DNA of 64,000 nt from Chitinophaga sancti (lineage in GTDB: Bacteria > Bacteroidota > Bacteroidia > Chitinophagales > Chitinophagaceae), in assembly GCF_034424315.1 (NCBI RefSeq), contig NZ_CP139972.1:4774001-4838000 (forward strand), read 5' to 3'. Under the pieces are notes generated by a model that ran no database searches, was not told the origin of the DNA, and saw nothing but the letters and a program-made list of their open reading frames with translations. Every line of letters starts with the position of its first letter. Positions within the stretch are counted from its first letter, which is position 1. A program made the translations under genes and the position numbers. Positions 2,194 to 19,682 of the stretch are shown here, in pieces.

Positions 2194-2413
2194 AACATCA
2201 GCATTTATAATTGAGTAATGCCTACAGCCGGATAGGGCATATGTAAGCTACCCTCATAAAATAGGGTAGTCAAATGTATATTAAATGTACAATTGACACC
2301 ATTAAAAATTCCCTGTCTGCGTGAGGAGTAAAAGACACTATTAACACCCGCTTCACACAGAAGCAATAATAAGGCATTTTAGGAGAACTGCAAATACTTC
2401 TTAAGACCCGCGC

Positions 2414-2462
2414 CTGATCTTCGTCAGGATAGCGAACGATTAATACTGATCTTCGTCAGGAT
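2414..2462. repeat. Two direct copies of a small hairpin upstream of the U32 gene
   Basis: The 17-mer CTGATCTTCGTCAGGAT occurs at 2414-2430 and again, identically, at 2446-2462. Each copy can fold as a short stem (CTGA/TCAG, or CCTGA/TCAGG in the first copy) around TCTTCG. The pair lies 20-68 bases upstream of the promoter element at 2482-2489. It could be a tandem operator or part of a terminator for neither strand in particular. The rest of the 2194-2490 gap is AT-rich and holds nothing else I can support. Confidence 0.6.
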
Positions 2463-2481
2463 CTGCATTGATGGGAAAAAG

Positions 2482-2489
2482 TAACTTTG
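2482..2489 (+). promoter_or_regulatory. Bacteroidota -7 element for the U32-ferredoxin operon
   Basis: TAACTTTG fits the TAnnTTTG -7 consensus of the Bacteroidota housekeeping sigma factor. No well-spaced -33 TTG element is obvious. Transcription from here would begin near 2496, which places a GTG candidate start at 2491 outside the message and favours the ATG at 2521. Confidence 0.5.
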
Positions 2490-2520
2490 CGTGCCCGTCA
2501 TGCCAACGGGATACACACAT

Positions 2521-4187: not shown

Positions 4188-6065
4188 ATGTCCCAACTCA
4201 CAGAAACCATATTCCGCATTGACGAAAAACCCGTCACTCTTTTCAGTTCTTTCACATTAACCCAGCACATCTTTTCTCATCATACATTCACACTCGTCTG
4301 CCCCTCCGAAGCGATCGATGGCCAGGCAGGTCTTCTCACAAAGTCAAAAGACCTGATCGGCGCCACCTTCGAAGCCCATATATCCGCCATCAGCACTGAT
4401 GACAGTGAAACCAGTCCGCTCCTGTTTCGCGGTGTAATTACTGATGTTGAAAGCATACGCCTCACCGGCAAAACAGAAGAAGTCATGCTCACAGGCTACA
4501 GCCCTACCATCATTCTCGATAGCGGCCCTCATTGCAAAAGCTGGAAAAAGAAAGACCTGAAAGCAATCCTAAACGATGTAATTGCTGCCTTCCCTGCCGA
4601 TCAGCTTGCACCTGATATCAACCCAGTGTATGCTGATATTCCCGGTTACACCGTGCAGTATAAAGAAAGTGCCTGGGAGTTCCTGCAACGCATGGCGGCC
4701 TCTTACGGGGAATGGTTATACTGGAATGGCAGCAACCTTGTAATAGGGCCTCCAAAAGATAAGAACAAGACCTCACTGATCTATGGCAGTAACCTCAGCC
4801 AGTTCGCCATCAGCCTCAAAGCCATCAGCTCTCAGCATAAATATGTAACCTGGGATTACCAGAGCAGCCAGGTATACGTCAGCTCACCTGATGGTGTAGA
4901 ACAAAGAGCCGGACTGAATCAACTGGGGCAAACCGTCTATACTTCTTCCAACAAATTATATAGCACACAACCCAAACAATGGAATTACCGCTTCGCCAAT
5001 AACAAAAGTCAACAGGATAAACTGGTTACACTAAGAAGTGCACTGGAAGCCAGCAGAATGGTGCAGTTCACCGGCTTCAGCGGCAATCCACAGGTATCCC
5101 TTGGCGACACCGTCGATATCAGTGGCAATAACCTGTATGGAGGCGGAGAAACGGAAGGCTATGGCCAATACCGCATTACCAGCATCAATCACCGGGTAAA
5201 CGGGAAAGGAAATTATGATAACAACTTCACCGCAATTCCCGCGTCCGTAATATTGCCACCAGTCGAAGTACCCGCAGAACCCGTTTGCGAAACCCAGAGC
5301 GCCATTGTTACTGACAACCATGACCCACTGGGCCTCGGCCGCATACAAGTCAGGTTTCACTGGATGAAAGAGACTGAAAAAAGCCCCTGGATCAGGGTGA
5401 CCACCCCACACGCCGGTGGCGGAAAAGGGCAATTCTTCATTCCGGAAACTGGCGAAGAAACTATAATCGGTTTTGAAGGTGACGTGGCTACAAAACCATT
5501 TGTAATAGGTGCAGTATACCACAGAAGTGCGGGTAATACCTATAGCAATGCAGGCAATGATATCAAAGCCCTGCAAAGCCGTAGTGGCAATAAACTGATC
5601 CTGAATGATAAAGAAGGAAGTGTGCACCTGGCAGATAAAGGCGGTGCCGATATGAAATTTGACGGTGCAGGAAATGCAACGACCAATGCCAGCAAAAACA
5701 GTACGCTCAACGCTGGCACCAATAACCTGATCAATGCAGGGAGCACCAATGTCATCAATGTAGGCGCTACCAAAGATGCTCCACCCACCAGCGTTATATC
5801 CATGGATGCAGATGGCACCATCATTCTCGATGGTAAAACAAAGATCCTGATCCAGGTAGGCGAAAACAAGATCGAAATTTCCAAAGAAGGCATATTCACA
5901 ACCGCCAGTGACGGGAAGATCCATACCATTGCTAAAACAGGTGATGTGAATATAGAAAGCGAAACCGGAGAAGCAAAGTTCAAAGGAAGCGTGAAGACCA
6001 ACTTAGGTGGTGGTACCAATACATTCGTTATCGGCAGCGATTCTGTAGAAATAAACCAGGCCTGA
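4188..6065 (+). CDS. vgrG: VgrG-like type VI secretion spike protein
   Basis: The 625-residue protein matches the Bacteroidota Vgr family: a gp27-like region (1-350, with GYTVQYKESAWEFLQRMAAS, the late-control-protein segment), a gp5 OB-fold (about 365-460, with DPLGLGRIQVRFHW and GETIIGFEGD-like strands) and a repetitive beta-helix needle from about 470 (repeats of NAGTNN, NAGSTN, NVGATK) ending at 625. It should form the trimeric tip that punctures target cells. It leads a four-gene + strand cluster (spacings 2, 24 and 25 bases) with an unknown protein, a PAAR-like effector and an immunity gene. No sheath, tube, baseplate or membrane-complex gene is in the window, so it is an auxiliary spike locus that must use an apparatus encoded elsewhere. 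Confidence 0.9.
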   Translation: MSQLTETIFRIDEKPVTLFSSFTLTQHIFSHHTFTLVCPSEAIDGQAGLLTKSKDLIGATFEAHISAISTDDSETSPLLFRGVITDVESIRLTGKTEEVMLTGYSPTIILDSGPHCKSWKKKDLKAILNDVIAAFPADQLAPDINPVYADIPGYTVQYKESAWEFLQRMAASYGEWLYWNGSNLVIGPPKDKNKTSLIYGSNLSQFAISLKAISSQHKYVTWDYQSSQVYVSSPDGVEQRAGLNQLGQTVYTSSNKLYSTQPKQWNYRFANNKSQQDKLVTLRSALEASRMVQFTGFSGNPQVSLGDTVDISGNNLYGGGETEGYGQYRITSINHRVNGKGNYDNNFTAIPASVILPPVEVPAEPVCETQSAIVTDNHDPLGLGRIQVRFHWMKETEKSPWIRVTTPHAGGGKGQFFIPETGEETIIGFEGDVATKPFVIGAVYHRSAGNTYSNAGNDIKALQSRSGNKLILNDKEGSVHLADKGGADMKFDGAGNATTNASKNSTLNAGTNNLINAGSTNVINVGATKDAPPTSVISMDADGTIILDGKTKILIQVGENKIEISKEGIFTTASDGKIHTIAKTGDVNIESETGEAKFKGSVKTNLGGGTNTFVIGSDSVEINQA

Positions 6066-6067
6066 TC

Positions 6068-6934
6068 ATGAAAAGAGCCATTCCATCAAAACATGTAAAG
6101 GAATATTACCTTATCACCTCGGCCAATAAAACTATTATCGGTCAGAAGAAACTGGAGTTTGTACAGGATAAGCTGATCAGCTTTACACTGGTAGATCAGC
6201 AGGCCACGCATCTTATATTTGAATATAAACTGTATGAACAGGTAATGCAGGGAAGCTCACTGCTTCATTACTATAGTGGTGATATGGATGAGTTGCAATC
6301 AACGCTCTTATTCAAAACAGACCTGCAGGGCAATCTCACAGACCTGCTCCAGCTCAATGACCTGAAATTAAAATGGCAGACCGGATTTGAGAAGAACCTG
6401 AAAAAGAAATATCCGAAAGAATTTATCACCCCATTGCTGGAAGAAACGGCAAAACTGCTGGAAGATAAACCCAGACTGCTTGAATCGTTCAAAGGATACA
6501 GCGCCTGGCGCTTCTTTTTCCAACACTGGTTTCGTGAATTTAATGCAGCGGAAACCGAGCTATTAAACTTACAGCATTACTTTGGCAACACAGATCTGCC
6601 ATTGCTGCTACAGCGAAAAGTAACAGATCATGCCATCGAAACGACCGGCACCTTGCACGTAGCTGCATTTGATCGCAACGCCTTTTCCAGAACACTAAAA
6701 GACCTGACCCACAAATATAACATCGATGCTACCCTGGATCTCACACAGGAAGAACAGTACCAGTTCACACGAAACGGCAGCCTGGAAAACGCGGAACTTT
6801 ACTTATCCACTGGTGTAGGTACCTGGTACAATGTAACTTCCGCACACCAGCTAAAAAGGCTCTCCAAACAGGAGTTCCAGGAGCAACGCATCGTACTTGA
6901 AAATCTTAAAAAGGAGCACGCACTTCCTTTTTAA
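6068..6934 (+). CDS. Uncharacterised protein between VgrG and effector; probable adaptor
   Basis: I do not recognise the family. The 288-residue protein has no signal peptide or membrane segment and is mostly helical and charged from residue 100 to 200 (KKKYPKEFITPLLEETAKLL), with beta-rich ends. It starts two bases after the vgrG stop and 24 bases before the effector gene. In type VI loci, genes placed between vgrG and a PAAR-type effector commonly encode adaptors or chaperones that load the effector on the spike (Tap/DUF4123, Eag/DcrB, DUF2169 proteins). That role is inferred from position alone; none of those families' motifs are visible. Confidence 0.55.
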   Translation: MKRAIPSKHVKEYYLITSANKTIIGQKKLEFVQDKLISFTLVDQQATHLIFEYKLYEQVMQGSSLLHYYSGDMDELQSTLLFKTDLQGNLTDLLQLNDLKLKWQTGFEKNLKKKYPKEFITPLLEETAKLLEDKPRLLESFKGYSAWRFFFQHWFREFNAAETELLNLQHYFGNTDLPLLLQRKVTDHAIETTGTLHVAAFDRNAFSRTLKDLTHKYNIDATLDLTQEEQYQFTRNGSLENAELYLSTGVGTWYNVTSAHQLKRLSKQEFQEQRIVLENLKKEHALPF

Positions 6935-6958
6935 CCGTCATCCATTAAACTCAAGAAT

Positions 6959-8341
6959 ATGAGTAAAAAATATATCCCGGACAAATCCTGGCTCACCTGC
7001 GATAAAGGGCAATTACCCACGCAAATAACCGTTACACATGATAATAACTCTAAGTTGTACGGTGAGAAGATGGTGAGCGAAGCAGACATGGTGCCGGGTG
7101 AAAATATAAAACCCTTTGGACGTTGTAGTGTAACCGGTGGCCCCTGTAAGTTCGATCCCCTCTACTGGGATAAGTGCAACCAGGGCGTGAAAGTGAATTC
7201 CTTCAAAATGGTATTTGAAGATGCTAACCTGATTTGTAAAGCAGGAGGTAAGATCAAAGTTGATTTCACCGTACCACAGGGTAGTTATTTCGACTTTGGT
7301 TTCACCGGCCTTGGGCTAACCGCGCAGTGGGCCAATTACAAAGGTGCCATTGATTACAACCAACGCGGCGTAATCTACGATGTACAGCACGACAAGGTAT
7401 CACTGACCACCGATAACGGTAACCATGCCCGGAAAGGGAACTATGGTGAGATGAATGACAATGTATACCACAGGGAAAATGACTGGAGAGATATCAGAAA
7501 AGAACACCCTGTCATTGACATCGACAAGCCTACAGCCAGTGGTATTGATGGTGCTTATGAAAAAGGGGGTGTGATGAAGGCCACAGATGGTAAGTATGGA
7601 ACAGCGCGGATAGAAGAAACCGTACGAAACGGGAAGGAGCTGAGTGAATCCTGGGTAGAAAATCACCTGAACCGTGGTGCCATCACCAGCCCTGCAGATG
7701 AACAGGCTATGCGAACCGCAAATCAGAATGGAACCTTACAGCGGGAAGTGATCTATACTGATAAAAATGAAAAAGGTGTCATCCGCGAGGGTTTATCCTC
7801 CGAAACACATGACGCTACCGGTGCCAAGGAGACCCGTGGTCAGTTTGAAACGCTGAATATGAAACCACGTTCCATGGCGGGCAAAATGATAGATGCAACC
7901 CGGTCCTCCATGCGTAATTCAAAACCCATAAAAGCACTGGCAGGCTCCAATTTTGCAAAGGGCGTACAGGAAAGTACAGCAGCCGTAAGAGCAAATAAAG
8001 CCTTGTGGAAAGGGGCACAATTCATGGAGTCCACACCAGCCCTGAGAACTACCGGGAAGGTAGTAGGCAGGGGCCTGATAGTAGTCGGCATCGCCATCGA
8101 TGCTGCCTTTATATATTCTGCCTATAATGAAGAAGGTGGATTCGGAGACAAAACCCAGCAAGCCACAGGCAGCGCTATTGGCGGCACGGCAGGGGCCTGG
8201 GCAGGGGCAGAAATAGGTGCCGTGATAGGTACTGCCATATGCCCCGGAGTTGGTACGGTGATTGGTGGTATAGTAGGCGGTGTGATTGGTGGACTGGCAG
8301 GCAGCAGTGCAGGGTCGAAAATAGTCGATTGGTTATTTTAA
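6959..8341 (+). CDS. PAAR-like (DUF4280) effector with PoNe-like nuclease core and glycine zipper
   Basis: The 460-residue protein has three parts. Residues 1-105 match DUF4280, a PAAR-like spike cap (WLTCDKGQLP, then cysteines at 56 and 63, CNQG, LICKAGGKI). Residues 190-285 read GIDGAYEKGG, then ATDGKYG, then GKELSESWVENHL; this fits the core of PoNe-type DNases of the PD-(D/E)xK fold, with D197 and D210-x-K212 as likely metal/catalytic residues. Residues 365-460 are a glycine-zipper membrane-insertion region (GTAGAWAGAEIGAVIG, GGIVGGVIGGLAGSSAG). The next gene resembles the immunity family that partners PoNe toxins, which supports a DNA-degrading antibacterial effector. The nuclease lying before the glycine zipper, and not at the C-terminus, is unusual. 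The nuclease call is by eye and needs a profile search. Confidence 0.7.
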   Translation: MSKKYIPDKSWLTCDKGQLPTQITVTHDNNSKLYGEKMVSEADMVPGENIKPFGRCSVTGGPCKFDPLYWDKCNQGVKVNSFKMVFEDANLICKAGGKIKVDFTVPQGSYFDFGFTGLGLTAQWANYKGAIDYNQRGVIYDVQHDKVSLTTDNGNHARKGNYGEMNDNVYHRENDWRDIRKEHPVIDIDKPTASGIDGAYEKGGVMKATDGKYGTARIEETVRNGKELSESWVENHLNRGAITSPADEQAMRTANQNGTLQREVIYTDKNEKGVIREGLSSETHDATGAKETRGQFETLNMKPRSMAGKMIDATRSSMRNSKPIKALAGSNFAKGVQESTAAVRANKALWKGAQFMESTPALRTTGKVVGRGLIVVGIAIDAAFIYSAYNEEGGFGDKTQQATGSAIGGTAGAWAGAEIGAVIGTAICPGVGTVIGGIVGGVIGGLAGSSAGSKIVDWLF

Positions 8342-8366
8342 TTATTTTAGCATCAATTGAAATATT

Positions 8367-9095
8367 ATGGGAATATTCGGTAAACTTTTTGGTGGCACCA
8401 AAGAAATGACCAACTTCAAGGTTAGGGCACAATACAAAGATGCAAAGTATTTCCAGCAGGAAATAACCCGCTTTGAACAAATCATTGCAAGCTCTCCTGA
8501 GCCTACCAGGCCATTTCATTACTGGTCAAGAGCCAGCAAACTCAATATCATCATGGACCTGGAGTATTCACTGGGCAAGCCCTTCGATAGCTTGATGGAC
8601 ATTTATCTGCAGGCGCTTGACAACCTGGTGAAAGGCTGGAACAAAGAAGATCCTACCTACGAAGATTTTCTGAACCTGCTGGCCAAAGGAGTGTTATTAG
8701 ATATTCCAAACAATGAATTTCAACGCCTCGTTAAGTATTTAGAACAGGCAGACAAAGACGCGCCTCCCGGCTGGAAACCAGATGCACTGGCCTGGTACCT
8801 GGTACGGGGCAAGATGAAAGTGCATACCAATGAAGATGTGACCACCACCATGTCTCCGAAAATTGATCAGCGTCTTTTTGACCTGACCCAACTCCCGAAA
8901 GCAGCAGCAGAAGTAGCCGTAAAAGAATACCTGGAAGACTGGTATAAATTAAGAAAAGACTCGCCCTGGTATAACTCCCATACAAGAGACAGGGGCTACA
9001 GTGGCTATTGGGCCTGGGATGTAGCGGCCGTCGTGAAGCTGATGGGATTAGATGATAGTAGTTTTAGGGATAATCCCTATTATCCGCAAACATAG
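8367..9095 (+). CDS. PoNi-like (DUF1911) immunity protein
   Basis: The 242-residue cytosolic protein ends in YSGYWAWDVAAVVKLMGLD then DDSSFRDNPYYPQ, which is the hallmark of DUF1911 (GYWxxExAAxxkxxxiDDSSxxdxxYYP). DUF1911 proteins (PoNi) bind and block PoNe DNase toxins. It follows the effector gene by 25 bases, in the classic toxin-immunity order. The N-terminal half is helical (FQQEITRFEQII), as in the DUF1910 part of this family. It should protect the producer and its kin from the upstream effector. Confidence 0.8.
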   Translation: MGIFGKLFGGTKEMTNFKVRAQYKDAKYFQQEITRFEQIIASSPEPTRPFHYWSRASKLNIIMDLEYSLGKPFDSLMDIYLQALDNLVKGWNKEDPTYEDFLNLLAKGVLLDIPNNEFQRLVKYLEQADKDAPPGWKPDALAWYLVRGKMKVHTNEDVTTTMSPKIDQRLFDLTQLPKAAAEVAVKEYLEDWYKLRKDSPWYNSHTRDRGYSGYWAWDVAAVVKLMGLDDSSFRDNPYYPQT

Positions 9096-9229: not shown

Positions 9230-9757
9230 TTATTCGAAAATAATTTCACCTCTTTTATAATCAATAGAGATTTTCATAAAACCGCCCAAAGCACTCTGCC
9301 CAAGCAATAAAGGCGCATCCAGGTTATGCACCACAGATGCCTGCACATTTCTTAAGATACGATCGCCGATCTTTACCGTACGAAGATTGACCACCGTACC
9401 TGCTGAAATATTTCCGTTTGCATCTGTAAAATTTGCACTGCCCAGTATATCGTCTTTTGATAATGAACCCTGTTTGTATAGGAACATGGCTTCCGTTTCT
9501 GAGATCGATATAATGCTGGCACCTGTATCAAATATGAAATGCATCCTTACATCATTTACTTCCACAGGCACCTGGAATACACCATTCACCTTCTCCATCT
9601 TCACGACTGTTCTCCCGCCTTCTACCGTAGTAGGGGGTGGTGTCACCACACTATCCGCAGCGGTACGGTTATGACTTTTCCTTCTTCCTGACTGAGAGCA
9701 TCCGGAACATCCGGACAGGAAAAGGACGATACCAAGCATTACAAAAAGTTGTTTCAT
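9230..9757 (-). CDS. Retropepsin-like aspartic protease lipoprotein
   Basis: The 175-residue protein starts with a lipoprotein signal (lipobox LSGC, cysteine 17) and has one retropepsin-type unit: VRMHFIFDTGASIISISE with the DTGAS catalytic motif, and a later hydrophobic-hydrophobic-glycine flap/strand APLLLGQSALGGF. Such clan AA single-domain proteases act as dimers. It is the last gene of the eight-gene operon and overlaps the OmpA-like gene by 4 bases. It could process an envelope partner of that operon, but no target can be named. Confidence 0.75.
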   Translation of the reverse strand: MKQLFVMLGIVLFLSGCSGCSQSGRRKSHNRTAADSVVTPPPTTVEGGRTVVKMEKVNGVFQVPVEVNDVRMHFIFDTGASIISISETEAMFLYKQGSLSKDDILGSANFTDANGNISAGTVVNLRTVKIGDRILRNVQASVVHNLDAPLLLGQSALGGFMKISIDYKRGEIIFE

Positions 9758-10368
9758 TCAATTTTAATTTCACCGATTTTAGGGACAATTTGAATAAGGA
9801 TCCGCTGATTCCTGCTTTCTTCTCCAGGTGCATACCGGCCAATACCCCCGGTACCGGAACCTGCCACCTGCACTTCACAAACATTTGGATCAGGCACAAT
9901 ATTCCTGCTTTGCCACAACTTCAATACCGCCCAGGCACGCTTATAGCTCAGGGGAAAGTTATCACTGTAATTATCATTGGAGGCCATCCCCTCTATAATC
10001 ACCACATACTTAATGTCCTGACCCGCATATTTCACAGCAAGGTCTTTGATCAGTTTACTGATAGACGTTCCTACTTTCGAAAGATAGACTTCATCTGCCG
10101 GTTTTAAAATATCCTTCCCCCTGTCAAACTCAATATTCTGCACCAGGGAAAATCGTTTGTACACGGAATCATAAGCAAAATACTCCCTGGGTAACTCTGT
10201 CACTGCCGCCTGGATCTCTTTGATCTTCTTTAATTGTTCTTCTGTAGCCCGCTGCTGATACGTGAGTTTCAAAAATGTCAACACATACAATACCAGCATA
10301 ATAAAAAACAGACTGGTCATCAGATCTGTAAAACTAGGCCAGAAAAACCCTGCTCCTTTTCCCTTCAT
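9754..10368 (-). CDS. MotB/ZorB-like stator subunit with OmpA-type peptidoglycan-binding domain
   Basis: The 204-residue protein begins with a short cytosolic tail and one membrane segment, FFWPSFTDLMTSLFFIMLVL, whose Asp15 matches the proton-binding aspartate of MotB/ZorB. Residues 75-200 form an OmpA/MotB peptidoglycan-binding domain (EFDRGKDILKP, LSYKRAWAVLKLW, NQRILIQI). With the adjacent MotA-like gene (3-base gap) it should form an ion-driven stator anchored to the cell wall. The pair resembles ZorAB of the Zorya defence system, but ZorC, ZorD and ZorE are absent. Confidence 0.8.
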   Translation of the reverse strand: MKGKGAGFFWPSFTDLMTSLFFIMLVLYVLTFLKLTYQQRATEEQLKKIKEIQAAVTELPREYFAYDSVYKRFSLVQNIEFDRGKDILKPADEVYLSKVGTSISKLIKDLAVKYAGQDIKYVVIIEGMASNDNYSDNFPLSYKRAWAVLKLWQSRNIVPDPNVCEVQVAGSGTGGIGRYAPGEESRNQRILIQIVPKIGEIKIE

Positions 10369-10371
10369 AAC

Positions 10372-11931
10372 TTAAGATTTTCCGGATCCAAAAAGCTTCT
10401 TAATAGAATGGATCACGCCCTTCTCACTATTCTTCTGGATCTGCTCAAGCACCACCAGGGTCTTCGCCATGTTCTTATTCATATCATCCAATGCCTGTTT
10501 CAGGCGCTCACCCTGCGATGCAGAACTGTTTTTAAACAGGATCACATCGGACTTCAGTGTCTGCAAATGCTCGAGGTTCCCCAGGTTCGTCCTACTTGCA
10601 GACATCGCAGATTTCAATACTTCCGTTTCATCGACAGTGAATTGCTTCACTGCATCACTGGATTTAATGATATGCTGCTTCAACTCCTGGAAGGTGTCTG
10701 TAATATGATAACTTACATCTGCCACTGCATTCGCAGCAAATTCCTTTTGCTGTTCCAGTTTATTGAAATGTTCAGACAGGAAATCCAGTAATTGCTGACT
10801 TTGATGTAATCGATTATCAATCGTATCTGCGATCACTTTAAAATCACCTGTTCTTGCAAGCAATTCATTCGTCTTGCCCACCATCTGTTGTGAGTTATCC
10901 ACAAACTGATTGACATTCGTAAGGTACTGGTTGAATTTCTCAAACTGCTCTACCGAAAGGGTCAGCTGTTTCAATACATGAATATTGAACTTTGCCATAT
11001 CAGCTACCTTGCCGTCATCCAGCATCTGCAAGAGTTCTTTCTGCTCCTGGATCGCCAGCCGGTTATTATCAAAGATGCCATTCAGCTTTCCGAGATTCGC
11101 CGTAAACTCCGTGTTAAACTTCATCAGGTTCCGCTGCAGGGAGTCCAGCGTATTGGCTAAACCCTGATTAATGATAGGCAGTAACTGGATCTGGATAAAT
11201 GTGTATAGATCATTCTTCCTCGATTCGTTGAAACTCCTGGCTCCTTTAAATAACCAGCCGCTATGAATGATCGTACACAGCAAGCCAACAAAGCTCGCGA
11301 TCATAGCTATTTTCACACCACCGATCAGAGAGCCGATACCGGCATCCAGCATCGCACCACTGGCATTTACATCGATACTGCCACCAAGCTTCGGCATATT
11401 GAATAATGCTATCACGATGCCCAGCATAGTACTCATCAAGCCCAGGTATAAGGGCACCCCGACTGACTGGTTGATATCTTCCTCTACTACACTTGTATTT
11501 CTTTCAACCACGTCTTTGATCAGGTTAAAGTCAGAAGAAGCCCCGCTGTTGCGAATAAGGTAGTTATTAATAGCATAAAGGATCCTGACAAAGACCTCAT
11601 TAAGTACAGCATTGCTTTCTATAATGCTGATTTCCTTCCGCTCCAGATAGACGATTCGCCGGCTATCACTGCCATCTGCTTCCTGTTCATTCTGAGAATA
11701 TTGACTGGAGAAATAATCCACCCTGTATTTATCCCGGTGTGCAAGAATTTCTTTGGGAGATAATGTCTCAAGTGTCATGACAGGCACAAAAAGTTTCGAT
11801 ACGTACAATGCATTTTCTGCAGGAATAATATTTCTGTACAATCTTATCTGCGTCATAGTACGCCAAAAGATATAAAGCTGTATACAGACAATCACCAAAA
11901 CTATAAAATACTCTATATGCTCAACTTTCAT
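10372..11931 (-). CDS. MotA/TolQ/ZorA-like proton channel subunit with long cytosolic tail
   Basis: The 519-residue protein has a membrane anchor at 7-24, then two segments typical of MotA/TolQ/ExbB channels: VGVPLYLGLMSTMLGIVIAL (158-177) and GSLIGGVKIAMIASFVGLLC (200-219). Residues 230-519 are almost all helical and predicted coiled-coil, ending in a basic KKLFGSGKS. Short MotA/ExbB proteins lack such a tail, while ZorA has one that projects into the cytoplasm. It pairs with the MotB-like gene downstream and its start overlaps the upstream membrane coiled-coil gene by 11 bases. I infer that the tail couples ion flow to the cytosolic NTPases of this operon. Confidence 0.8.
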   Translation of the reverse strand: MKVEHIEYFIVLVIVCIQLYIFWRTMTQIRLYRNIIPAENALYVSKLFVPVMTLETLSPKEILAHRDKYRVDYFSSQYSQNEQEADGSDSRRIVYLERKEISIIESNAVLNEVFVRILYAINNYLIRNSGASSDFNLIKDVVERNTSVVEEDINQSVGVPLYLGLMSTMLGIVIALFNMPKLGGSIDVNASGAMLDAGIGSLIGGVKIAMIASFVGLLCTIIHSGWLFKGARSFNESRKNDLYTFIQIQLLPIINQGLANTLDSLQRNLMKFNTEFTANLGKLNGIFDNNRLAIQEQKELLQMLDDGKVADMAKFNIHVLKQLTLSVEQFEKFNQYLTNVNQFVDNSQQMVGKTNELLARTGDFKVIADTIDNRLHQSQQLLDFLSEHFNKLEQQKEFAANAVADVSYHITDTFQELKQHIIKSSDAVKQFTVDETEVLKSAMSASRTNLGNLEHLQTLKSDVILFKNSSASQGERLKQALDDMNKNMAKTLVVLEQIQKNSEKGVIHSIKKLFGSGKS

Positions 11932-12784
11932 AAGTGATTTTCGCTTTAGTCATAAGAACCCATTTATCCCCCTGTAGTTCCGCTGTTCCTGGTTTTTGTG
12001 TAACAATCTTTGTCGCCTTTGCATTATAGGCATTCAGCGCATCACAAACGGGATCAATACTTTTATCGGGATATTGTAATGCCAGCTTAATAGAAGCTTC
12101 TCTTTCATCAATGCAGAAACTGGCTTTATTGAAACTATCTTTTACGAAGCGGTAGATAGTAGCCCCTTCTCTGTAAGAAGCAGAGGCCGAGCTCACATTG
12201 AATGTGCCATTAGAGTTAGGGGTAGATAGAAAGAAGAATTCCTTCTTTGCTTCTGCTACCGGCTGCTTCTCCTGTACAGGCGCTTTTTGTGCAGGAGAAA
12301 CAGGTGGCGTTGGAGGTGGAGCTACCAGCCTGTCAATCTTCTCCCGTAATTGTTGTACCAATGCTTCCAAATCAGTTATCCTGGTGATGTAATCCTCCAG
12401 TTTTTCTTTGCTGGCATATTTATCTTTACCATTTCCCTTCCCGTCAGACGACATGTTTTCCTGGATCTTTTTCACCTCTTTTTTAATAGGAGAAATTGCA
12501 GCTGCTATTTCAGATTCCGCCTTGCTACCTGCAATCTTCACGGCTACATATACCGCAATGCCCCCCAGCAGTAAAGCAAAAACCACAGCATAAACAATCG
12601 TCCGCGTACTCAATCCCTCCTCTGCCACTTTCGCCACCTCAGCAGTATGAGGCTTCGCGGCAGGAGTGGCCTGCTGAACATTTACAGTACTATGTCGCCC
12701 CGTTGTCTCTGCAGTATTCGTCGCCTGCGCGCCCGCAACATGCACCCACAAAAGACTAATCAATAAAATATAAATAACTTTCAT
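11921..12784 (-). CDS. Membrane coiled-coil protein of the cytoskeleton-motor operon
   Basis: I do not recognise the family. The 287-residue protein has a signal peptide (1-19), a low-complexity stretch, a membrane segment (63-83, IVYAVVFALLLGGIAVYVAV), a coiled coil (88-148), a proline-rich linker (PPPTPPVSPAQKAPVQ) and a compact C-terminal domain (about 183-287, with FFFLSTPNSNGTFNVSSAS). The C-terminal domain should be cytosolic. It sits between the actin-like gene (4-base gap) and the MotA-like gene (11-base overlap) and may tether them at the inner membrane; this is inference from layout. Confidence 0.7.
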   Translation of the reverse strand: MKVIYILLISLLWVHVAGAQATNTAETTGRHSTVNVQQATPAAKPHTAEVAKVAEEGLSTRTIVYAVVFALLLGGIAVYVAVKIAGSKAESEIAAAISPIKKEVKKIQENMSSDGKGNGKDKYASKEKLEDYITRITDLEALVQQLREKIDRLVAPPPTPPVSPAQKAPVQEKQPVAEAKKEFFFLSTPNSNGTFNVSSASASYREGATIYRFVKDSFNKASFCIDEREASIKLALQYPDKSIDPVCDALNAYNAKATKIVTQKPGTAELQGDKWVLMTKAKITYES

Positions 12785-12788
12785 GCTC

Positions 12789-15700
12789 TTAGTTATTAAT
12801 TGGAGTTAGTTGTGATAAGGGAGAAGAAAGATGATTGATCGTGCCTATAATAGGATAAAAGAATAGGGTCTCCTCCAGCTCCTTGTCACTTGTCACTCCC
12901 TCATCCATTCGCCTGTTATACTCAAGCCCCTCTTCCAGGTAATCCCTCAGATGTTTATTCAGCTCCTCCTTAAAGATCTCCAGCGATTTCTCCGAAACAT
13001 TGAAGTAATCATTGAAATTATACTGGTTATTCAGACCTATAAAAAAGGTATTAAATTTTTGCACATAAGCAGCTATATCCGCCTTGTTCTCCTCGGTCAG
13101 CTGGTCATAAGTCAATTTCCGAATTCCCTTATCTTCCAGGCAGGTCACCGTTGTCTTAATACTCTTCGTATCTATCGATAGATCTTCCGCATTTGACATC
13201 AGGCCACCTTTACAAGTAATTTCCTTCGGCATCGCTTTCTCTGTTTCAATACTTAAACCATCTGCATCATAGGCTTCTCCATATACCCCTTCAAAGATCA
13301 GTTTAGAAAATGCCGCCAATATCTTCTGATCAGATGTAATAATGTTCAACACCTTGGACCCTGTTCCACTAAACACCAGGTGCTTGGGCAATACCAGGTT
13401 CTCATTCTTCATCATCTCTGCAATCTGGTAAATGATAGCTCCATAGAAATAAAGCGCCAGGATCTTTAAATCCTCATCATTCGCCAACAGCTGATTATAA
13501 GAAAACAACTTCTTATCCTTAATAGTCGGGTTATTCTCTACCGAAAAGAAGAAAGCATTAATATCTTCTGTCTTATTCTTATCCTTTATAGAAGACAATA
13601 CCTGTGAAAGATCATAGAGTTTATTCGAATTCAATAGGTTCTCGTAATAAGGCAGATATTTCATAATCATGCCGTTTGAAGTAGCCGCCCCATATTCACT
13701 AAAGCCATCGCCAAAAAGCGTATTAGCCGCAAATTTGAAGGAAGTCATCTTCAGCGGTTTATTCCCCTGGAAAACCACAATATCCGTCGTTCCACCACCT
13801 ATATCAATTGAGACGACAGGTTTGTAAGCACCACCCTGGAGTTTATTAGATGCCTTGAAGTAATAAAAGGGTGCCAGCGATTCCGCAATGCCAATGCTCT
13901 GGTTCACCGGATGGAAGTATTTCTGGAACAACTCATTCCAGGTACTCTCCAATGAAGACCTGCGGGCAGGCTTCATACTGGAAGGATAAAACCACACCAG
14001 CTTAGTCTGTGAAAGATTGCCCCTGTTTAGTAATACCTTGTTCCGCAACAGCATGATCACCTTCTCAAAATAAGCCCTGATCCGCTTCTCATTTCCCTTT
14101 TCCTTACGCGCCCATTTCAGATTGGATGATACCTTGTCTCGCTCAGGCTTCCTTTCATAAATGAATGGAATATTGAAATCGGCAAGTGAGAACGTTTCTG
14201 TTTCAATATTCAATGCATGACTTTCGGCAATCACCGTTCTATGCGGGAACCGGAATTCAGAATTTTGCCCGAGGTACTGGGGTACAAATTCGTGATTGAT
14301 TAACTCCCTGATTGCAATAGCACCTGAATCACCAAAGTTATCCGTTGTTTTGGTGGGATGGAATAAAGTTGCGATCTGCACATCCTCCACTGTAATATCA
14401 AATGGTTTGGGAGAACCGTTTCCTATTTTATATTCAATATGCGTGTTGGTTGTACCAAAATCAACTGCAAAACTGAACAGTTCATTTCCCGGGCTATAAT
14501 GCGGCCAGTGAGGAATTATAATTCCCGATGCACCACCCCCTATAATATTGCTAACCTGTATGTAATCAAATTCCTTATTGAGTACATAGTACTGAGAGCC
14601 TGCTTCCAGCGCCTCTATCCGCTTTCTGCTCCGTACCTTCCTGGCTCTTCTCTCAATTGGCGCTGCCGAACTATTTTCAAAAAACTGCAAATCATACTCC
14701 GTTCCTCTCAGGTACCCTGCCACATCCCTATCCACCAGCTGTACCCTATAGTAAGCCTCTATATCAGGGTTATTGAGTTTAATAAAAGGGAACAACGTAA
14801 TCCCAAATTCATGCTGCACAATCACCCCCTTATTCTTCTCTACATCCGGCTTGCCCGGCTGCATCTCATTACTCTGGTAATAGATCCTTTCAAAAATAAT
14901 ATACTCGCCAGCCTTTGCCACCGGCACCCGCAACACTACCTTCACCGAACCCGCAACGCCCTGTCTCATTTCTACAGACGGCTTACCAGGCAATGGATTT
15001 AACAAATCTACCGAATCAAAATACTCAAAGAAGGTCTTCGTCAACGGTAGCAAATACCCTTTCGAATCATCCCCAATATCCGTAATCACATTGCCATCAA
15101 AGAACTTCTCCTTATTAATCGGGTATACCAGGCGGACCAGGTATGGTTCCAGAAAATCAGTTACCGTCAAATAAGGATACTGCATCTTCACTCCCGGTAA
15201 CCACCTCCGCTCCATCACCGTCTCCTCATCTACATACGGTACCGTAATCGCATTATCCCAGTTATCATTAATATATCGAAACGGCTTATTCAGGTTATTC
15301 TGCAATACCAGCGGCCTCAAAGCTCCCTTATATTTAGCAGCAGCAATCATAAAATCACTCGCCTGAATAGACCCGATAATATTCTCCTTCTTACGCTTCC
15401 GCAAAGGCACATCTATTACTTCTATCACCTCTCCACCTATACCCGTGTCCAGCTCAGAATAATTATTCATGAAATCCCCTTCCCTCAGTTCCTTAATCTC
15501 CTGGTACAATTTCACATTCGTTCTATCCAGGATCTTCAGGTTCTTATCCAGGTAATCCGCTACCACCCTCATTCTCTCAGGCAATCTTGGATTTGATTTA
15601 AACAACAGGTACAAATATTTCTGAAAATCCGGATCCCTCAAATAAAGTGGCGTAAAATGCTCACTAAACGTTTCCTGGTTCTTCGTCAGCTTGATCCGTG

Positions 15701-16244
15701 CATGCGACAGATCATTTGCTGTCGCAAAGAATAAGGTAGCCGGTGAAGTACAACCGATGATCTTATGATTGTATTCAATCAGGTACAACCTTTTCATCAG
15801 GTCAAAATTGTAAGACGCCTTATCCTGCTCCAGGTACAATTCCAGTGTCTCTGCCAGTCTTCTATGCGTATCAGAACCACGTTTCATTTTCATCAGCTCC
15901 ATCTCCCTATCCCACACAATGATCTTCACTTTATCCTTTACACTATCAATATTGAACAGGATCTCCGCCAGATCCAACGCATCAGACACCAGTTTCTCAT
16001 CATCCTTCCCCGCCAGCACATCCCCATCTTTCATATAGGCTTTCAGTTCAGGCGACTTCACAATATTGCGAAACGCCGTCTTCACCAGGTCAATCCGCGC
16101 AAAGGGGCTGGGAATAGCCGTGGGCAAACTAATTTCACTCCCTCCTTCTGGATCCTTGATCGATTCAATCTCTTTATCAGAATAGGCATCAGAAGCAAAC
16201 CAATCCTTCCCGCCTTTTTTTGTATATCCGAAATTCTTGTTCAT
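12789..16244 (-). CDS. Very large actin/Hsp70-fold ATPase
   Basis: The 1151-residue cytosolic protein has a 590-residue N-terminal region I cannot assign, followed by an ATPase domain of the actin/Hsp70 type. Visible motifs are phosphate-1 VDFGTTNTH (594-602), phosphate-2 SIDIGGGTTDIVVF (812-825) and the adenosine motif FSGTGSKV (958-965). The spacing suits an Hsp70-like core with inserts. No substrate-binding domain of DnaK is visible. It lies 4 bases after the tubulin-like gene. An actin-fold and a tubulin-fold NTPase encoded side by side suggests a filament or remodelling machine working with the downstream motor pair. Confidence 0.8.
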   Translation of the reverse strand: MNKNFGYTKKGGKDWFASDAYSDKEIESIKDPEGGSEISLPTAIPSPFARIDLVKTAFRNIVKSPELKAYMKDGDVLAGKDDEKLVSDALDLAEILFNIDSVKDKVKIIVWDREMELMKMKRGSDTHRRLAETLELYLEQDKASYNFDLMKRLYLIEYNHKIIGCTSPATLFFATANDLSHARIKLTKNQETFSEHFTPLYLRDPDFQKYLYLLFKSNPRLPERMRVVADYLDKNLKILDRTNVKLYQEIKELREGDFMNNYSELDTGIGGEVIEVIDVPLRKRKKENIIGSIQASDFMIAAAKYKGALRPLVLQNNLNKPFRYINDNWDNAITVPYVDEETVMERRWLPGVKMQYPYLTVTDFLEPYLVRLVYPINKEKFFDGNVITDIGDDSKGYLLPLTKTFFEYFDSVDLLNPLPGKPSVEMRQGVAGSVKVVLRVPVAKAGEYIIFERIYYQSNEMQPGKPDVEKNKGVIVQHEFGITLFPFIKLNNPDIEAYYRVQLVDRDVAGYLRGTEYDLQFFENSSAAPIERRARKVRSRKRIEALEAGSQYYVLNKEFDYIQVSNIIGGGASGIIIPHWPHYSPGNELFSFAVDFGTTNTHIEYKIGNGSPKPFDITVEDVQIATLFHPTKTTDNFGDSGAIAIRELINHEFVPQYLGQNSEFRFPHRTVIAESHALNIETETFSLADFNIPFIYERKPERDKVSSNLKWARKEKGNEKRIRAYFEKVIMLLRNKVLLNRGNLSQTKLVWFYPSSMKPARRSSLESTWNELFQKYFHPVNQSIGIAESLAPFYYFKASNKLQGGAYKPVVSIDIGGGTTDIVVFQGNKPLKMTSFKFAANTLFGDGFSEYGAATSNGMIMKYLPYYENLLNSNKLYDLSQVLSSIKDKNKTEDINAFFFSVENNPTIKDKKLFSYNQLLANDEDLKILALYFYGAIIYQIAEMMKNENLVLPKHLVFSGTGSKVLNIITSDQKILAAFSKLIFEGVYGEAYDADGLSIETEKAMPKEITCKGGLMSNAEDLSIDTKSIKTTVTCLEDKGIRKLTYDQLTEENKADIAAYVQKFNTFFIGLNNQYNFNDYFNVSEKSLEIFKEELNKHLRDYLEEGLEYNRRMDEGVTSDKELEETLFFYPIIGTINHLSSPLSQLTPINN

Positions 16245-16248
16245 GGCA

Positions 16249-17754
16249 TTAGTTTTTCAAACCGAATTTTGAAGTCAGTATATCCTCCGTTGCTTCAAAA
16301 AAGAGCTGCACTAATTTCTGCTGTGCAGAACTATAGCTCTTCCCTTTAGAGAGCTTACTCAGTTTGCTGTCATACATAGCATAATCTACCTTACCGGTAA
16401 ACCATCCCTTATTCACATTCCTGTTTTTGATAATCGCATCCAGCGGTGCATTCAGATTGAAAGGCGCAAAACCCCTCTTGTTATTACTCATCTCCCTCAG
16501 CCATTCCCCAAAGGCATGCAGGAACTCAGAAATATTCGTCCTGTAAAAACGGTCATCCAAAAACTTCTGGTCCAGTTCAGGCGCATCATTACTCCAGGCT
16601 TCCTTCCCGGCAGCAGTACTGATATGCTCATCCAAAAATCTCTTGAACAGCACGAACTGAGAAAGTGGTAATTCCGTTTTCCGTTGTGTATAATCTTCAA
16701 AATCAGAGAAGGCAATATCTGTCACATCATTGCGGGTCGCAAATTCTTTGTAGACAGGTCTGATCGCTTTGCCCCCATCACATTCCAGGTCGGCATCAGG
16801 GATCTCCATAAAGTCAATAATCGCCAGTGCAGCAGCAAACTCCACAAAGTGCGCATCATTCTGCTGGCCATTGTCACCCGGATCATTCTTATAGGGTTTA
16901 CCACTGTAATCGTCACCTATATAGTAGAGGGCATTCACAGAATTATTACCCGTCACATTATCTTTGTAGTAGTACAGTGCTGCTTTGGTCTTCGCAATAA
17001 AATCAGACTTCTGAATCGGGCTATCCGCTTCCTTTTCAATATTGAAATAAGGCATGGCAGTCAGTGCCCCTATCTTTGCATCCTGCAAAAAGCCTTTGCC
17101 ATCAATATTCCGGTTATTCATCGCATCCCTGATGTTCTTCAGGATGGTAGGGAAGCCTGCAGCACCTGTACCGCCAAAGATGGAACTGATGATGAAAACC
17201 CTGTCTTCCGCATTGAAATTGGAGGCAAACTCTTTGAACTCCTCAGAATCTTTGAACTGATTCAGCACCACGCTACCAATATTCGGGTTACCTACGAATC
17301 CAATATCCATTTCAATATCCAGCAGGTCTATCTGCTCATGACGTTTATTGATAGACTGACCGGAGAAGAGAATATCTGTCAAAGCTTTATTTGCCGCATC
17401 CAGTTGATTGAAGTCAATGTAGTCACGGAACTTTTGCCCGGCTACCTGTTGCAGACTAAAAGCAAAACTACCTGACATCCTGTTTTCAGAACTCACCAGT
17501 TTGTTGAGTGTGACAATCCTGGTATTGAAAAAGCCATTCCCTAAACCGGCATGATCCACGATGGCCTGGTAATTGCCCAGTAGTCGTTCAGTCCTCTTCA
17601 GGTCTTCGTTAGATTTATGCGGATCGATGATGATAGGTACGATCTCAAATTCATGTTTTGAATTTGCCCGGACGCCGGCAGCGAGTAGCATCGTTAGTGA
17701 TTTTAACACCCTCGAACCAGTGCCTCCTATTGCGAATATGAACAAACGAGCCAT
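16249..17754 (-). CDS. Tubulin/FtsZ-like GTPase (Tubulin_2-type)
   Basis: The 501-residue protein opens with RLFIFAIGGTGSRVLKSL, the first nucleotide loop of FtsZ-like proteins outside the FtsZ family proper, and has the tubulin signature-like loop SSIFGGTGAAGFPTI (191-205, compare GGGTGTG). The region after it (about 225-330) carries the family's long insert. It is too long and diverged to be cell-division FtsZ. From memory, Makarova and Koonin described FtsZ-like families linked to vWA and OmpA-family proteins and predicted to remodel membranes; this operon has both partners. Biochemical GTP binding is inferred. Confidence 0.8.
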   Translation of the reverse strand: MARLFIFAIGGTGSRVLKSLTMLLAAGVRANSKHEFEIVPIIIDPHKSNEDLKRTERLLGNYQAIVDHAGLGNGFFNTRIVTLNKLVSSENRMSGSFAFSLQQVAGQKFRDYIDFNQLDAANKALTDILFSGQSINKRHEQIDLLDIEMDIGFVGNPNIGSVVLNQFKDSEEFKEFASNFNAEDRVFIISSIFGGTGAAGFPTILKNIRDAMNNRNIDGKGFLQDAKIGALTAMPYFNIEKEADSPIQKSDFIAKTKAALYYYKDNVTGNNSVNALYYIGDDYSGKPYKNDPGDNGQQNDAHFVEFAAALAIIDFMEIPDADLECDGGKAIRPVYKEFATRNDVTDIAFSDFEDYTQRKTELPLSQFVLFKRFLDEHISTAAGKEAWSNDAPELDQKFLDDRFYRTNISEFLHAFGEWLREMSNNKRGFAPFNLNAPLDAIIKNRNVNKGWFTGKVDYAMYDSKLSKLSKGKSYSSAQQKLVQLFFEATEDILTSKFGLKN

Positions 17755-17763
17755 GTGATAATT

Positions 17764-18225
17764 TTAAGGTTTCCAGAAAGTAGTATGCCTGCAATTAGTG
17801 CTGGCCTTTCTGATGAAAGGAATAGAAGTGATCAGTACAAAGAGAAGCAAGCTCCAGATAGCGTTGGATAATCCAAAGCCCAGGCAATCTGCAGTCGTGG
17901 GATGCAGGTCCTTGCAATAATCTCCCGCTCTCATCTCATTAAAAGAAATTGAAAAGGCTGCAATGAAATTGATCAGTACAATCACTAGTGCAAACAACCA
18001 CCAGTGCTGTTTCTTATTCCAGCGGGCACTATCAATGATGTGATATTGTAAACCATAAACAAAGGCAGTCACACCAACCATGATCCAGCCAATATATAAA
18101 TACCATGGAGTGTTAATATAATCCGTACAGGTAACATCAAATCCTCTCAACATGTCTCCCATATCGGTGGAATAAAGAGGTATCAGTCCGAACCATTCGT
18201 ATAAACTAGCGAAAAGATCCTTCAT
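17764..18225 (-). CDS. Small polytopic membrane protein of the operon
   Basis: The 153-residue protein has three clear membrane segments (about 42-60, 75-97 and 115-138) and soluble ends with several cysteines (CTDY, CKDL, CLGFG). No family is recognised. It lies 5 bases after the vWA-like lipoprotein gene and 9 bases before the tubulin-like gene, so it belongs to the same transcript. It may be the membrane receptor for the cytosolic filament protein, which is inference. Confidence 0.7.
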   Translation of the reverse strand: MKDLFASLYEWFGLIPLYSTDMGDMLRGFDVTCTDYINTPWYLYIGWIMVGVTAFVYGLQYHIIDSARWNKKQHWWLFALVIVLINFIAAFSISFNEMRAGDYCKDLHPTTADCLGFGLSNAIWSLLLFVLITSIPFIRKASTNCRHTTFWKP

Positions 18226-18230
18226 AGAAA

Positions 18231-19682
18231 CTATTTTTTAATCTGAATATTAATTTTACTGATCGTGTTAGGTGACTGAGGTGGATAGAAGGCATCGCAT
18301 ACACCATCCACGAGGTATTTAAAGCCGAATGTGCGTTGTTTCTCTGCATTGTCAGCAGCAATATTGGCGTCATCCTCAGAGCTGAGCTGCGCTACCCAGG
18401 AAGGCGATTGCCCGATCACACTTAATTCAAGCACCTCATCGCTTAACTCATCCGTACTGATATGCAGCAAATGCGTAAACCCTTTCAATGCAGGGTTATT
18501 CTTATCCTGGATCAGTTCAGCTTTCAGGTGGTAATGTTTATCACTCAGCATGTAATTAGCCGGATCCAGGTAATAACTGGCATCCTGTAAGCCTTTTGAA
18601 AAATCAACAGCTACATCAAACCCAAATACCCGCTCTGCAGAGGCCGTGGCATTGGTAATAATGCCCTGGGGCAGTTCCTTTGCATCAAAATGCCCGATCT
18701 GAGGTTTATACATGATCTTGAAAGCGGGCGCCTGTACATCTTTAATGCCTTGCAGTACCAGCTTATGCGCATATCCGCCTTTAATATTGTCTACGATCTT
18801 CTTCTCCAGTATTGCCCGCACTTGGGCAGTACTGCCTATAATCCAGATATAATAGGGCCTTTTGGTACTCAGTTGGATAGGTTTATCCGTCTTATCATAA
18901 TACACCCCATCAAAGTTCGACTCCAGGTGCACAATAACGGCAGCCAGGTCAAAAGCATGTAACTTCTCGGCAAAGTCAATCTTGATGCCCACACTCTGGT
19001 TATTCAGATAGTCATTGGCATTCGCCTTATTCCCCGGACTAAACACGAAGTCAGAGATCAGGATGGCAGCATTCCTGTCATTCACCGTATGCAGTACTGT
19101 ATTCAGGATACTTTTGAGATCAGATACACTGCGATCGCCGCCTCTGAGTTGAAAGGTAGCCGGCTCGAGCTTTTCGATGAAGTCCTGGATCTCAGGACTC
19201 AATGCATTTTTCTTCTGGTAAGGGATTGATTTGTTGATATAGCTGAGGTTCAGGCTATCGCAGATCCCGCTGATCCTGATATCACCCAGGAGGTTATAAA
19301 TAGCCGTTTCAAAATTGGTCACTCCTTTTACATAGCCATCCATGCTGGCAGAGTTCTCCAGGAACACATTTACGTTAAAGGCCCCGATCTGGCTGGGAGC
19401 AGCATCTCCCTGGCTGATCTCAACGGAAGACAGCTTTTTGCTATCCAGGAACTTCCTTAAATAAGCACTCAGCTTCTCGTTGTCGATCTTGCCATCCTGA
19501 TCTTTAAAGGTCTTAAAAGCCCTGTCGTTCGAACTTGCTGCCAGCTCGGCAAGGGCCTGATATTCCTTTTGATCGATACGTTGATCGCTTTTCGCATCTT
19601 CGATCACCTTTTGCTTAAATTCATCAAACTCCGATTTGCACCCAACAACTAGCAGTAGTGCCATCAAACAAAGACGTTTCAT
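18231..19682 (-). CDS. vWA-like lipoprotein, first gene of cytoskeleton-motor operon
   Basis: The 483-residue protein has a lipoprotein signal (VVGC, cysteine 15), a helical spacer (20-95, with an EF-hand-like DQDGKIDNEK) and a domain from 100 to 320 that reads as von Willebrand A: NVNVFLENSASMDGY at the metal site (usual DxSxS, here ExSxS at 109-113), then NAAILISDFVFSPG as the later aspartate strand. The C-terminal third (330-483) is beta-rich and unassigned. It would sit in the outer or inner membrane leaflet facing the periplasm. It is the first of eight genes spaced by -11 to +9 bases. No strong promoter was found; a weak TACCTTCG lies just upstream on the minus strand. Confidence 0.75.
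   Translation of the reverse strand: MKRLCLMALLLVVGCKSEFDEFKQKVIEDAKSDQRIDQKEYQALAELAASSNDRAFKTFKDQDGKIDNEKLSAYLRKFLDSKKLSSVEISQGDAAPSQIGAFNVNVFLENSASMDGYVKGVTNFETAIYNLLGDIRISGICDSLNLSYINKSIPYQKKNALSPEIQDFIEKLEPATFQLRGGDRSVSDLKSILNTVLHTVNDRNAAILISDFVFSPGNKANANDYLNNQSVGIKIDFAEKLHAFDLAAVIVHLESNFDGVYYDKTDKPIQLSTKRPYYIWIIGSTAQVRAILEKKIVDNIKGGYAHKLVLQGIKDVQAPAFKIMYKPQIGHFDAKELPQGIITNATASAERVFGFDVAVDFSKGLQDASYYLDPANYMLSDKHYHLKAELIQDKNNPALKGFTHLLHISTDELSDEVLELSVIGQSPSWVAQLSSEDDANIAADNAEKQRTFGFKYLVDGVCDAFYPPQSPNTISKINIQIKK

Follow-up and report, generated by a model that had tools for sequence, protein, structure and literature searches.

Described systems related to the locus

In the FtsZl1 system predicted by Makarova and Koonin (2010), Tubulin_2-family proteins are found with a vWA protein and an OmpA-type domain in predicted operons that also contain membrane components, and the authors favoured a role in membrane remodelling (main-text portions of PMC2875224). 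A reviewer in the same paper asked how a cytoplasmic tubulin meets periplasmic partners, and passages of PMC9871819 equate Tubulin_2 proteins with the FtsZ-like sequences described in 2010. Here we describe a related operon of eight genes from Chitinophaga sancti, located at positions 9230..19682 of a 64,000-nucleotide stretch of DNA (contig NZ_CP139972.1, positions 4,774,001 to 4,838,000; hereafter the window). It is built on a patchily distributed five-gene core composed of a vWA-like lipoprotein, a membrane protein, a tubulin GTPase, an actin/Hsp70 ATPase and a membrane coiled-coil protein, and this core is related to the FtsZl1/vWA system. Our data support a ZorAB-like motor having been added in many lineages, together with a position at the 3' end that is filled by lipoprotein hydrolases, often with the same leader tag. 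The structural description is well supported: a vWA core related to FtsZl1 has an actin-type partner, can carry a Zorya-like motor and provides a slot for tagged hydrolases.

Among the known systems, Zorya resembles the operon in its MotA-like channel with a long cytoplasmic tail and its MotB-like protein with a membrane Asp and an OmpA-type domain, and it provides the best-scoring solved relatives of the operon MotB. In contrast to Zorya, the operon contains no recognised ZorC, ZorD or ZorE, has five extra core genes including the tubulin and actin folds, and carries hydrolases that are lipoproteins. The MotAB, TolQR, ExbBD and GldLM stators belong to the same superfamily of ion channels as the operon motor, whereas the eight proteins include no recognised rotor, Ton, Tol or gliding component. 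The FtsZl1 proteins differ from the operon tubulin in mostly carrying a long coiled-coil extension; no P-loop GTPase or kinase was recognised in the operon, and an actin/Hsp70 partner, a proton motor and a lipoprotein hydrolase slot were not found in the main-text portions covered (PMC2875224).

The DO-GTPase (GAP1-N2) systems of Kaur et al. 2020 have a predicted role in conflict with variable effectors, and their tubulin-family proteins occur with GTPases and GAP1 (PMC7159879). They pair tubulin-family and vWA proteins in one theme and use HSP70 in another; however, the tubulin and HSP70 themes are described there as non-overlapping, and no motor appears in the relevant sections (PMC7159879). 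The operon contains no TRAFAC GTPase, because a motif scan found no Walker A motif in any of its eight proteins; GAP1 was not recognised among them either, no profile search having been aimed at it. A possible parallel is offered by membrane-tethered vWA force transducers encoded with TolQ/TolR-like genes, also in Bacteroidetes, in which a vWA fold is tied to a stator of the same superfamily but is fused to a TonB/TolA-like membrane anchor (PMC12204202). A term search in the available text of this and another stator paper (PMC12505986) gave neither tubulin nor FtsZ. The original prediction held that no system with the full set had been described, and we found none in the open-licence literature, preprints and most subscription papers lying outside this scope. 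Parts of the set are already published, namely FtsZl1 with vWA and OmpA (PMC2875224), the tubulin or HSP70 themes (PMC7159879), and vWA with TolQ/TolR-like genes (PMC12204202), as far as the sections covered extend.

The NTPases and membrane proteins of the core

All eight open reading frames (ORFs) lie on the minus strand, and their coordinates and the measured gaps between them (+5, +9, +4, +4, -11, +3 and -4 bases) confirm the tight layout that had been proposed, with gaps of -11 to +9. The third core gene (16249..17754) encodes a tubulin/FtsZ-like GTPase of 501 aa, assigned to the PF13809 family. In the AlphaFold model, residues 1-365 adopt a tubulin/FtsZ-type GTPase fold with the T1 and T4 loops. 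The match of the window protein to Pfam Tubulin_2 (E 2.1e-5, 24.4 bits) lies below the 27-bit family cut-off; PF13809 is precomputed for its cluster and for many close relatives, and a PDB profile search with the tubulin alignment found nothing. No extended coiled coil is seen after the tubulin domain of this 501-aa protein, in which the longest modelled helix has about 23 residues. The fourth gene (12789..16244) encodes an actin/Hsp70-type ATPase of 1151 aa, in which the AlphaFold model places an actin-type ATPase fold with the phosphate-1 and phosphate-2 loops at residues 588-1026, preceded by about 586 residues without an assigned domain. The active-site loops of the NTPases are conserved across relatives. 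The models thus agree with the earlier assignment of the two proteins as FtsZ/tubulin-like and actin/Hsp70-like. Kinship of the actin-like protein with SrfB rested on an E value of 0.088 and is not claimed.

The other three core proteins are associated with the membrane. The first gene (18231..19682) encodes a lipoprotein of 483 aa with a lipobox and a degenerate metal ion-dependent adhesion site, in which ExSxS replaces DxSxS; E109, S111 and S113 are each retained in 26 of the 27 aligned rows. Because the window lipoprotein has no Pfam vWA match, the vWA-like label rests on motif and position, and a PDB profile search with its alignment found nothing. The second gene (17764..18225) encodes a small membrane protein of 153 aa whose family was matched in 80 of 81 sets (80 loci and the window). 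It had been described as having three transmembrane helices; it is a multi-helix membrane protein, with two clear helices in the window at the hydropathy threshold used and three in the genes at the same position of the diverged loci L091 and L093.

The fifth gene (11921..12784) encodes a membrane coiled-coil protein of 287 aa, which consists of a signal peptide-like start, one further helix, the coiled coil and a C-terminal domain. A PDB profile search gave only matches that we take as chance, mostly to helical proteins. The closest orthologue (L042) has 425 aa and a longer N-terminal part, which is missing from several other relatives too. Together with the motor, the coiled-coil protein could bridge the cytoplasmic tubulin to periplasmic partners.

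The Zorya-like motor pair

The MotB/ZorB-like protein (9754..10368, 204 aa) contains a membrane Asp15 and an OmpA-type domain. It matches PADLOC ZorB1 with an E value of 3.4e-15, whereas it scores 29.7 bits against the NCBIfam ZorB1 equivalog, whose cut-off is 400, and so does not reach the curated level. All 16 aligned rows retain Asp15, G127, D132 and R144, as would be expected for an ion site and for peptidoglycan contact by an OmpA-type domain. In a PDB profile search the top three matches were 8vvn (3e-9), 8qyd (1.1e-7), which we take to be a Zorya structure, and 8vvi (3.3e-5), with the putative chemotaxis MotB 6ykp ranking behind (0.0017). The entries 8vvn and 8vvi appear in the Zorya paper PMC11890865, in the part of it that was covered.

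The MotA/ZorA-like channel (10372..11931, 519 aa) has a long predicted cytoplasmic tail. Its profile (27 rows) was aligned by hhalign to three ZorA-like proteins over 258 columns, part of the tail included (Prob 96.7, E 3.5e-10). The three comparators are identified as ZorA by position, each being located upstream of a ZorB2-like gene (E 3.5e-77, 1.4e-44 and 1.7e-18, all under the curated cut-off), and in two of the three loci the next gene looks HNH-like by eye. Since the comparison took in ZorA-like proteins and no other stators, the match is at the level of the superfamily. Some MotA relatives carry the source annotation 'MotA/TolQ/ExbB'. As a single protein, the window MotA gave only weak, unrelated Pfam matches and no NCBIfam match, and its profile search against PDB gave matches taken as chance, mostly to helical proteins. 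These results bear out the proposed MotA/ZorA-like channel and MotB/ZorB-like partner with its membrane Asp. As judged by sequence comparison, the motor is a MotA/TolQ-like and MotB-like pair, the best-scoring solved MotB relatives of which come from Zorya work.

An exchangeable hydrolase slot with a shared leader

The last gene of the operon (9230..9757) occupies an exchangeable effector position and encodes a lipoprotein of 175 aa with the DTGA motif, whose predicted retropepsin-like identity is supported by its match to PF13975 (E 3e-16). In many loci the motor is followed by a retropepsin-like, staphylococcal nuclease (SNase)-like or trypsin-like lipoprotein, or by pairs of them. None of the three types was recognised in eight of the 24 MotA loci, and in L038, L041 and L079 the sequence ends at or before the hydrolase position. 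Retropepsins are also found behind motorless cores, in nine evaluable loci. In addition to the SNase-like genes, the nucleases beside the motor include a PHROG nuclease match (E 1e-27) in the second gene after MotB of L121. In one locus (L010:18100-20376), a single motor is followed by a stack of three such genes, one trypsin-like and two nuclease-like, which suggests an accumulation of effectors.

The residues just after the lipid cysteine are alike in the three hydrolase types: CSGCSQSGRRK in the window retropepsin, CNSKSGNRK in the nuclease of L002 and CSRSGKK in the trypsin of L010. Among 34 hydrolases examined with the window excluded, this leader tag is present in 15 of the 30 that have a lipobox (nine retropepsins, four trypsins and two nucleases); these are not 15 independent cases, because many rows are related. 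In the control groups it occurs once among 177 other neighbours with a lipobox (715 examined) and once among 69 vWA proteins with a lipobox (79 examined). The tag was defined after being noticed, which makes this a post hoc test, and the retropepsins of L124 and L126 have leader variants by eye. What appears new here is that the 3' gene is a module, in which three unrelated hydrolases share a lipoprotein leader tag; the simplest reading is that the leader is conserved and the enzyme domains are swapped. A leader shared in this way predicts a docking partner inside the operon and could be used to find new effectors by the leader alone.

Distribution and co-inheritance

The best 80 of 344 relatives, among which gut metagenome-assembled genomes are abundant, were scored for gene presence with models grown from the window sequences; because the best-scoring relatives were kept, the set leans to close kin. 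All five core genes were placed in 66 of the 80 loci, and 77 have four or more of them. Eight of the 14 loci short of the full core lie near contig ends, and L011, L030, L053, L058, L060 and L081 do not. Among the named organisms in the scan, the closest relative is Chitinophaga silvisoli (L042), with a tubulin that is 94% identical. A MotA match was found in 24 of the 66 loci with at least 2.5 kb of sequence after the core, and a strong MotB match accompanies MotA in 21 of 25 sets including the window, being missing in L016-L018 and in the cut-off L079. The eight genes had been proposed as one set. Scoring their co-occurrence retains the five-gene core and the motor beside it, with the motor being optional and the retropepsin exchangeable.

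A less biased sample was provided by 395 genomes of the phylum. The tubulin is present in 13 of them, the C. sancti genome included, with three weak matches (E 1e-8 to 1e-16), and the MotA family in six, all of which also carry the tubulin, adjacent to it. The motor was found in the neighbourhoods L083, L085, L086, L087, L088 and L093, and none was recognised in five others; L082 is cut off. Counting the window, the motor is thus present in seven of 12 evaluable loci. L011 and L083 are apparently one record, with a broken tubulin frame and no actin-like or coiled-coil match. In the strongly diverged L093, the tubulin and actin-like proteins were matched, the coiled-coil protein, MotA and MotB weakly, the vWA-like protein with E 0.007, and the membrane gene was assigned by position. 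Its MotA falls just under the cut-off of Pfam MotA_ExbB (E 1.1e-4), matches our own MotA profile with 5e-5, and as a single sequence was unmatched by hhalign (Prob 1.6). An OmpA protein follows the tubulin and actin genes in L092. In L091 two TerD genes (1856-3063; E 2.8e-68 and 1.4e-70) lie behind a diverged tubulin-actin core, which ties the core to tellurite-type stress genes. Within the genus, the tubulin was found in 11 of 60 genomes, the ten others being 35-94% identical to that of the window; including the window, eight of these 11 loci have the motor and five the retropepsin.

Six plasmid records match, one of them cyanobacterial and one from Prevotella. Visual inspection of the cyanobacterial plasmid (L104, NC_014503) gave a membrane protein and, facing away, a vWA-like lipoprotein, followed by the tubulin, a protein of 1132 aa that weakly matches FtsA, and two consecutive coiled-coil proteins; no motor was recognised on it. 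No phage record matched. Three contigs were found in IMG/VR, which may include host DNA: L121 and L122, near copies in layout, have the core without a coiled-coil match plus MotA and MotB, and in L120 the core lacks a motor and has a phage tail-fibre gene and a DNA methyltransferase as neighbours.

Distances between tubulins correlate with those of the actin-like protein (r 0.95) and MotA (r 0.89) over 27 loci, and of MotB (r 0.86) over 21 loci, and in each case none of 5000 permutations reached the observed r. These tests omit L011, L014, L082, L083 and L085, which are broken, cut off or a repeat of L076, and vertical descent alone would also produce such a correlation. The tubulin tree is, however, at odds with taxonomy: Flavobacteriaceae as one clade were rejected (p-AU, approximately unbiased test, 4e-51); the group was chosen after the tree had been seen, the tree is a quick one, and paralogues or misnamed bins could contribute. 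Motor presence requires at least seven changes on the same tree, with long branches flagged. The sequence comparisons suggest that the set moves between bacteria largely as one unit, and we regard it as a real and apparently mobile machine. If the motor pair and the tubulin/actin core were separate systems that merely lie side by side, the lack of a MotA match in 42 of the 66 evaluable loci would be accounted for. The adjacency of the tubulin in six of six MotA genomes, the correlated tubulin and MotA distances and the persistence of the linkage in the diverged L093, L121 and L122 make this explanation very improbable, and co-inheritance supports the view that motor and core belong together.

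Two side features of gene order were seen. In L016 and L017, two genes (377/404 and 141 aa) lie between the vWA-like and small membrane protein genes, the 404-aa one resembling a flavin monooxygenase on visual inspection. In L038, L041 and L043, MotA and MotB are separated by a membrane protein of about 517-611 aa, which in L079 follows MotA at the contig end; that of L038 has no Pfam match above the cut-off.

Possible roles of the machine

Our preferred reading, to which we give a probability of roughly 45%, is that core, motor and hydrolase form one envelope-spanning machine, transferred largely as a unit, with a Zorya-like, envelope-sensing role in conflict. A conflict role is proposed because of the Zorya-like motor, the patchy and transferred distribution, the exchangeable hydrolases including nucleases, and the possible carriage by phages. 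For the single envelope-spanning, ion-coupled machine of the original prediction, the tubulin and actin folds, the motor pair and the co-inheritance speak in favour, and the eight genes proved not to be a fixed set.

Several observations weigh against a conflict machine of this kind. The motor is absent from the 42 loci mentioned above, MotA lacks an adjacent MotB match in L016-L018, and G390 (L083), one of the six MotA genomes, has no actin-like or coiled-coil match and a broken tubulin frame. PADLOC matches among the eight proteins comprise only ZorB and a weak CARF_TM, with no ZorC, ZorD or ZorE recognised. The hydrolases look periplasmic. Moreover, the actin-like protein is 72% identical in relatives from other families, more than expected of fast-evolving defence genes. 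Finally, PADLOC found no clear excess of matches in 149 neighbouring proteins over 130 control genes, which also gave strong matches, in a comparison resting on the top 25 of the 100 and 66 families matched. The 149 were taken from 184 listed neighbours; L016 was omitted because it nearly duplicates L017, and so were four of the seven genes from L042 and some others, mostly long or end-cut. The controls were genes hand-picked around coordinates in seven genomes different from those of the neighbours. The SNase and trypsin genes of the hydrolase slot account for eleven of the neighbour matches. A defence island was dropped as an idea, the PADLOC matches showing no clear excess, and the assignment of neighbour cluster c13 as RteC was dropped since six members had no Pfam match.

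The same lack of a defence-gene excess, and the strong sequence conservation, would fit the main rival, a machine for envelope remodelling or trafficking. Its NTPases would build a membrane-bound assembly, the motor would supply force across the envelope, for example for vesiculation or lipoprotein placement, and the hydrolases would trim envelope proteins. Many components are membrane-linked by hydropathy or lipobox, and the association of FtsZl1 with vWA and OmpA proteins is published (PMC2875224, portions covered). However, a patchy, apparently transferred distribution is odd for a housekeeping role in the envelope, and the effector slot includes nucleases; we consider remodelling possible but rather doubtful.

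Within the conflict reading, we tentatively suggest a new class of machine, in which proton flow through the ZorAB-like stator drives or gates an envelope-spanning tubulin and actin assembly, which discharges an exchangeable nuclease or protease, a lipoprotein bearing the leader tag, where the attack occurs. In the preferred reading, MotA and MotB would form a 5:2 stator, MotB would grip the peptidoglycan, and strain on the envelope or a breach of it would let protons pass Asp15, as has been proposed for Zorya. This ion flow would move the long cytoplasmic tail of MotA, which would act on the tubulin-like and actin-like NTPases, and their assembly cycle would be relayed outward via the coiled-coil and vWA-like proteins. 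The tagged hydrolase would then be recruited or released at the breach, and its nuclease or protease activity would be turned on material of phages or mobile elements as it enters, or on the cell itself. Provided that its parts work together, the operon would encode, to our knowledge, the first example of a stator powered by ions acting on cytoskeletal NTPases, and it would offer a testable setting for the FtsZl1-type tubulins predicted in 2010.

Genomic neighbourhood

The host genome comprises 8.42 Mb in one contig and has a single copy of the tubulin gene. Upstream of the first operon gene, 893 bases contain no listed ORF of at least 90 aa. Starting 134 bases beyond the other end and facing the operon are genes for a VgrG (PF04717), an unassigned 288-aa ORF, a DUF4280 protein and a PoNi immunity protein. 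This set (window 4188-9095) resembles a type VI secretion system effector-immunity cassette, with a weak glycine-zipper match at the end of the DUF4280 protein and no PoNe toxin domain among its Pfam matches.

The cassette adjoining the operon bears on a machine for secretion or antagonism, in which motor and NTPases would put the tagged lipoprotein hydrolases on the cell surface, against neighbours or for nutrients. The leader common to three hydrolase folds would suit such a task, and in L123 the operon likewise lies next to PoNi and size-matched ORFs. However, none of the eight proteins was recognised as an outer-membrane pore, and ORF sizes, with no sequence search made, give no sign of the cassette next to the other nine genus loci; we regard this role as unlikely, and retain the envelope-sensing conflict machine as the preferred reading. 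In G408 and G440, the U32 gene of the left flank is kept (94-95%) without a close right flank or PoNi, and their tubulin, of a 47%-identical subtype, lies far from this flanking gene; we do not claim these genomes as examples of an empty site. Elsewhere in the window, two equal 425-aa ORFs (50110-51387 and 54169-55446) with matching ORFs on the opposite strand are perhaps copies of one mobile gene.

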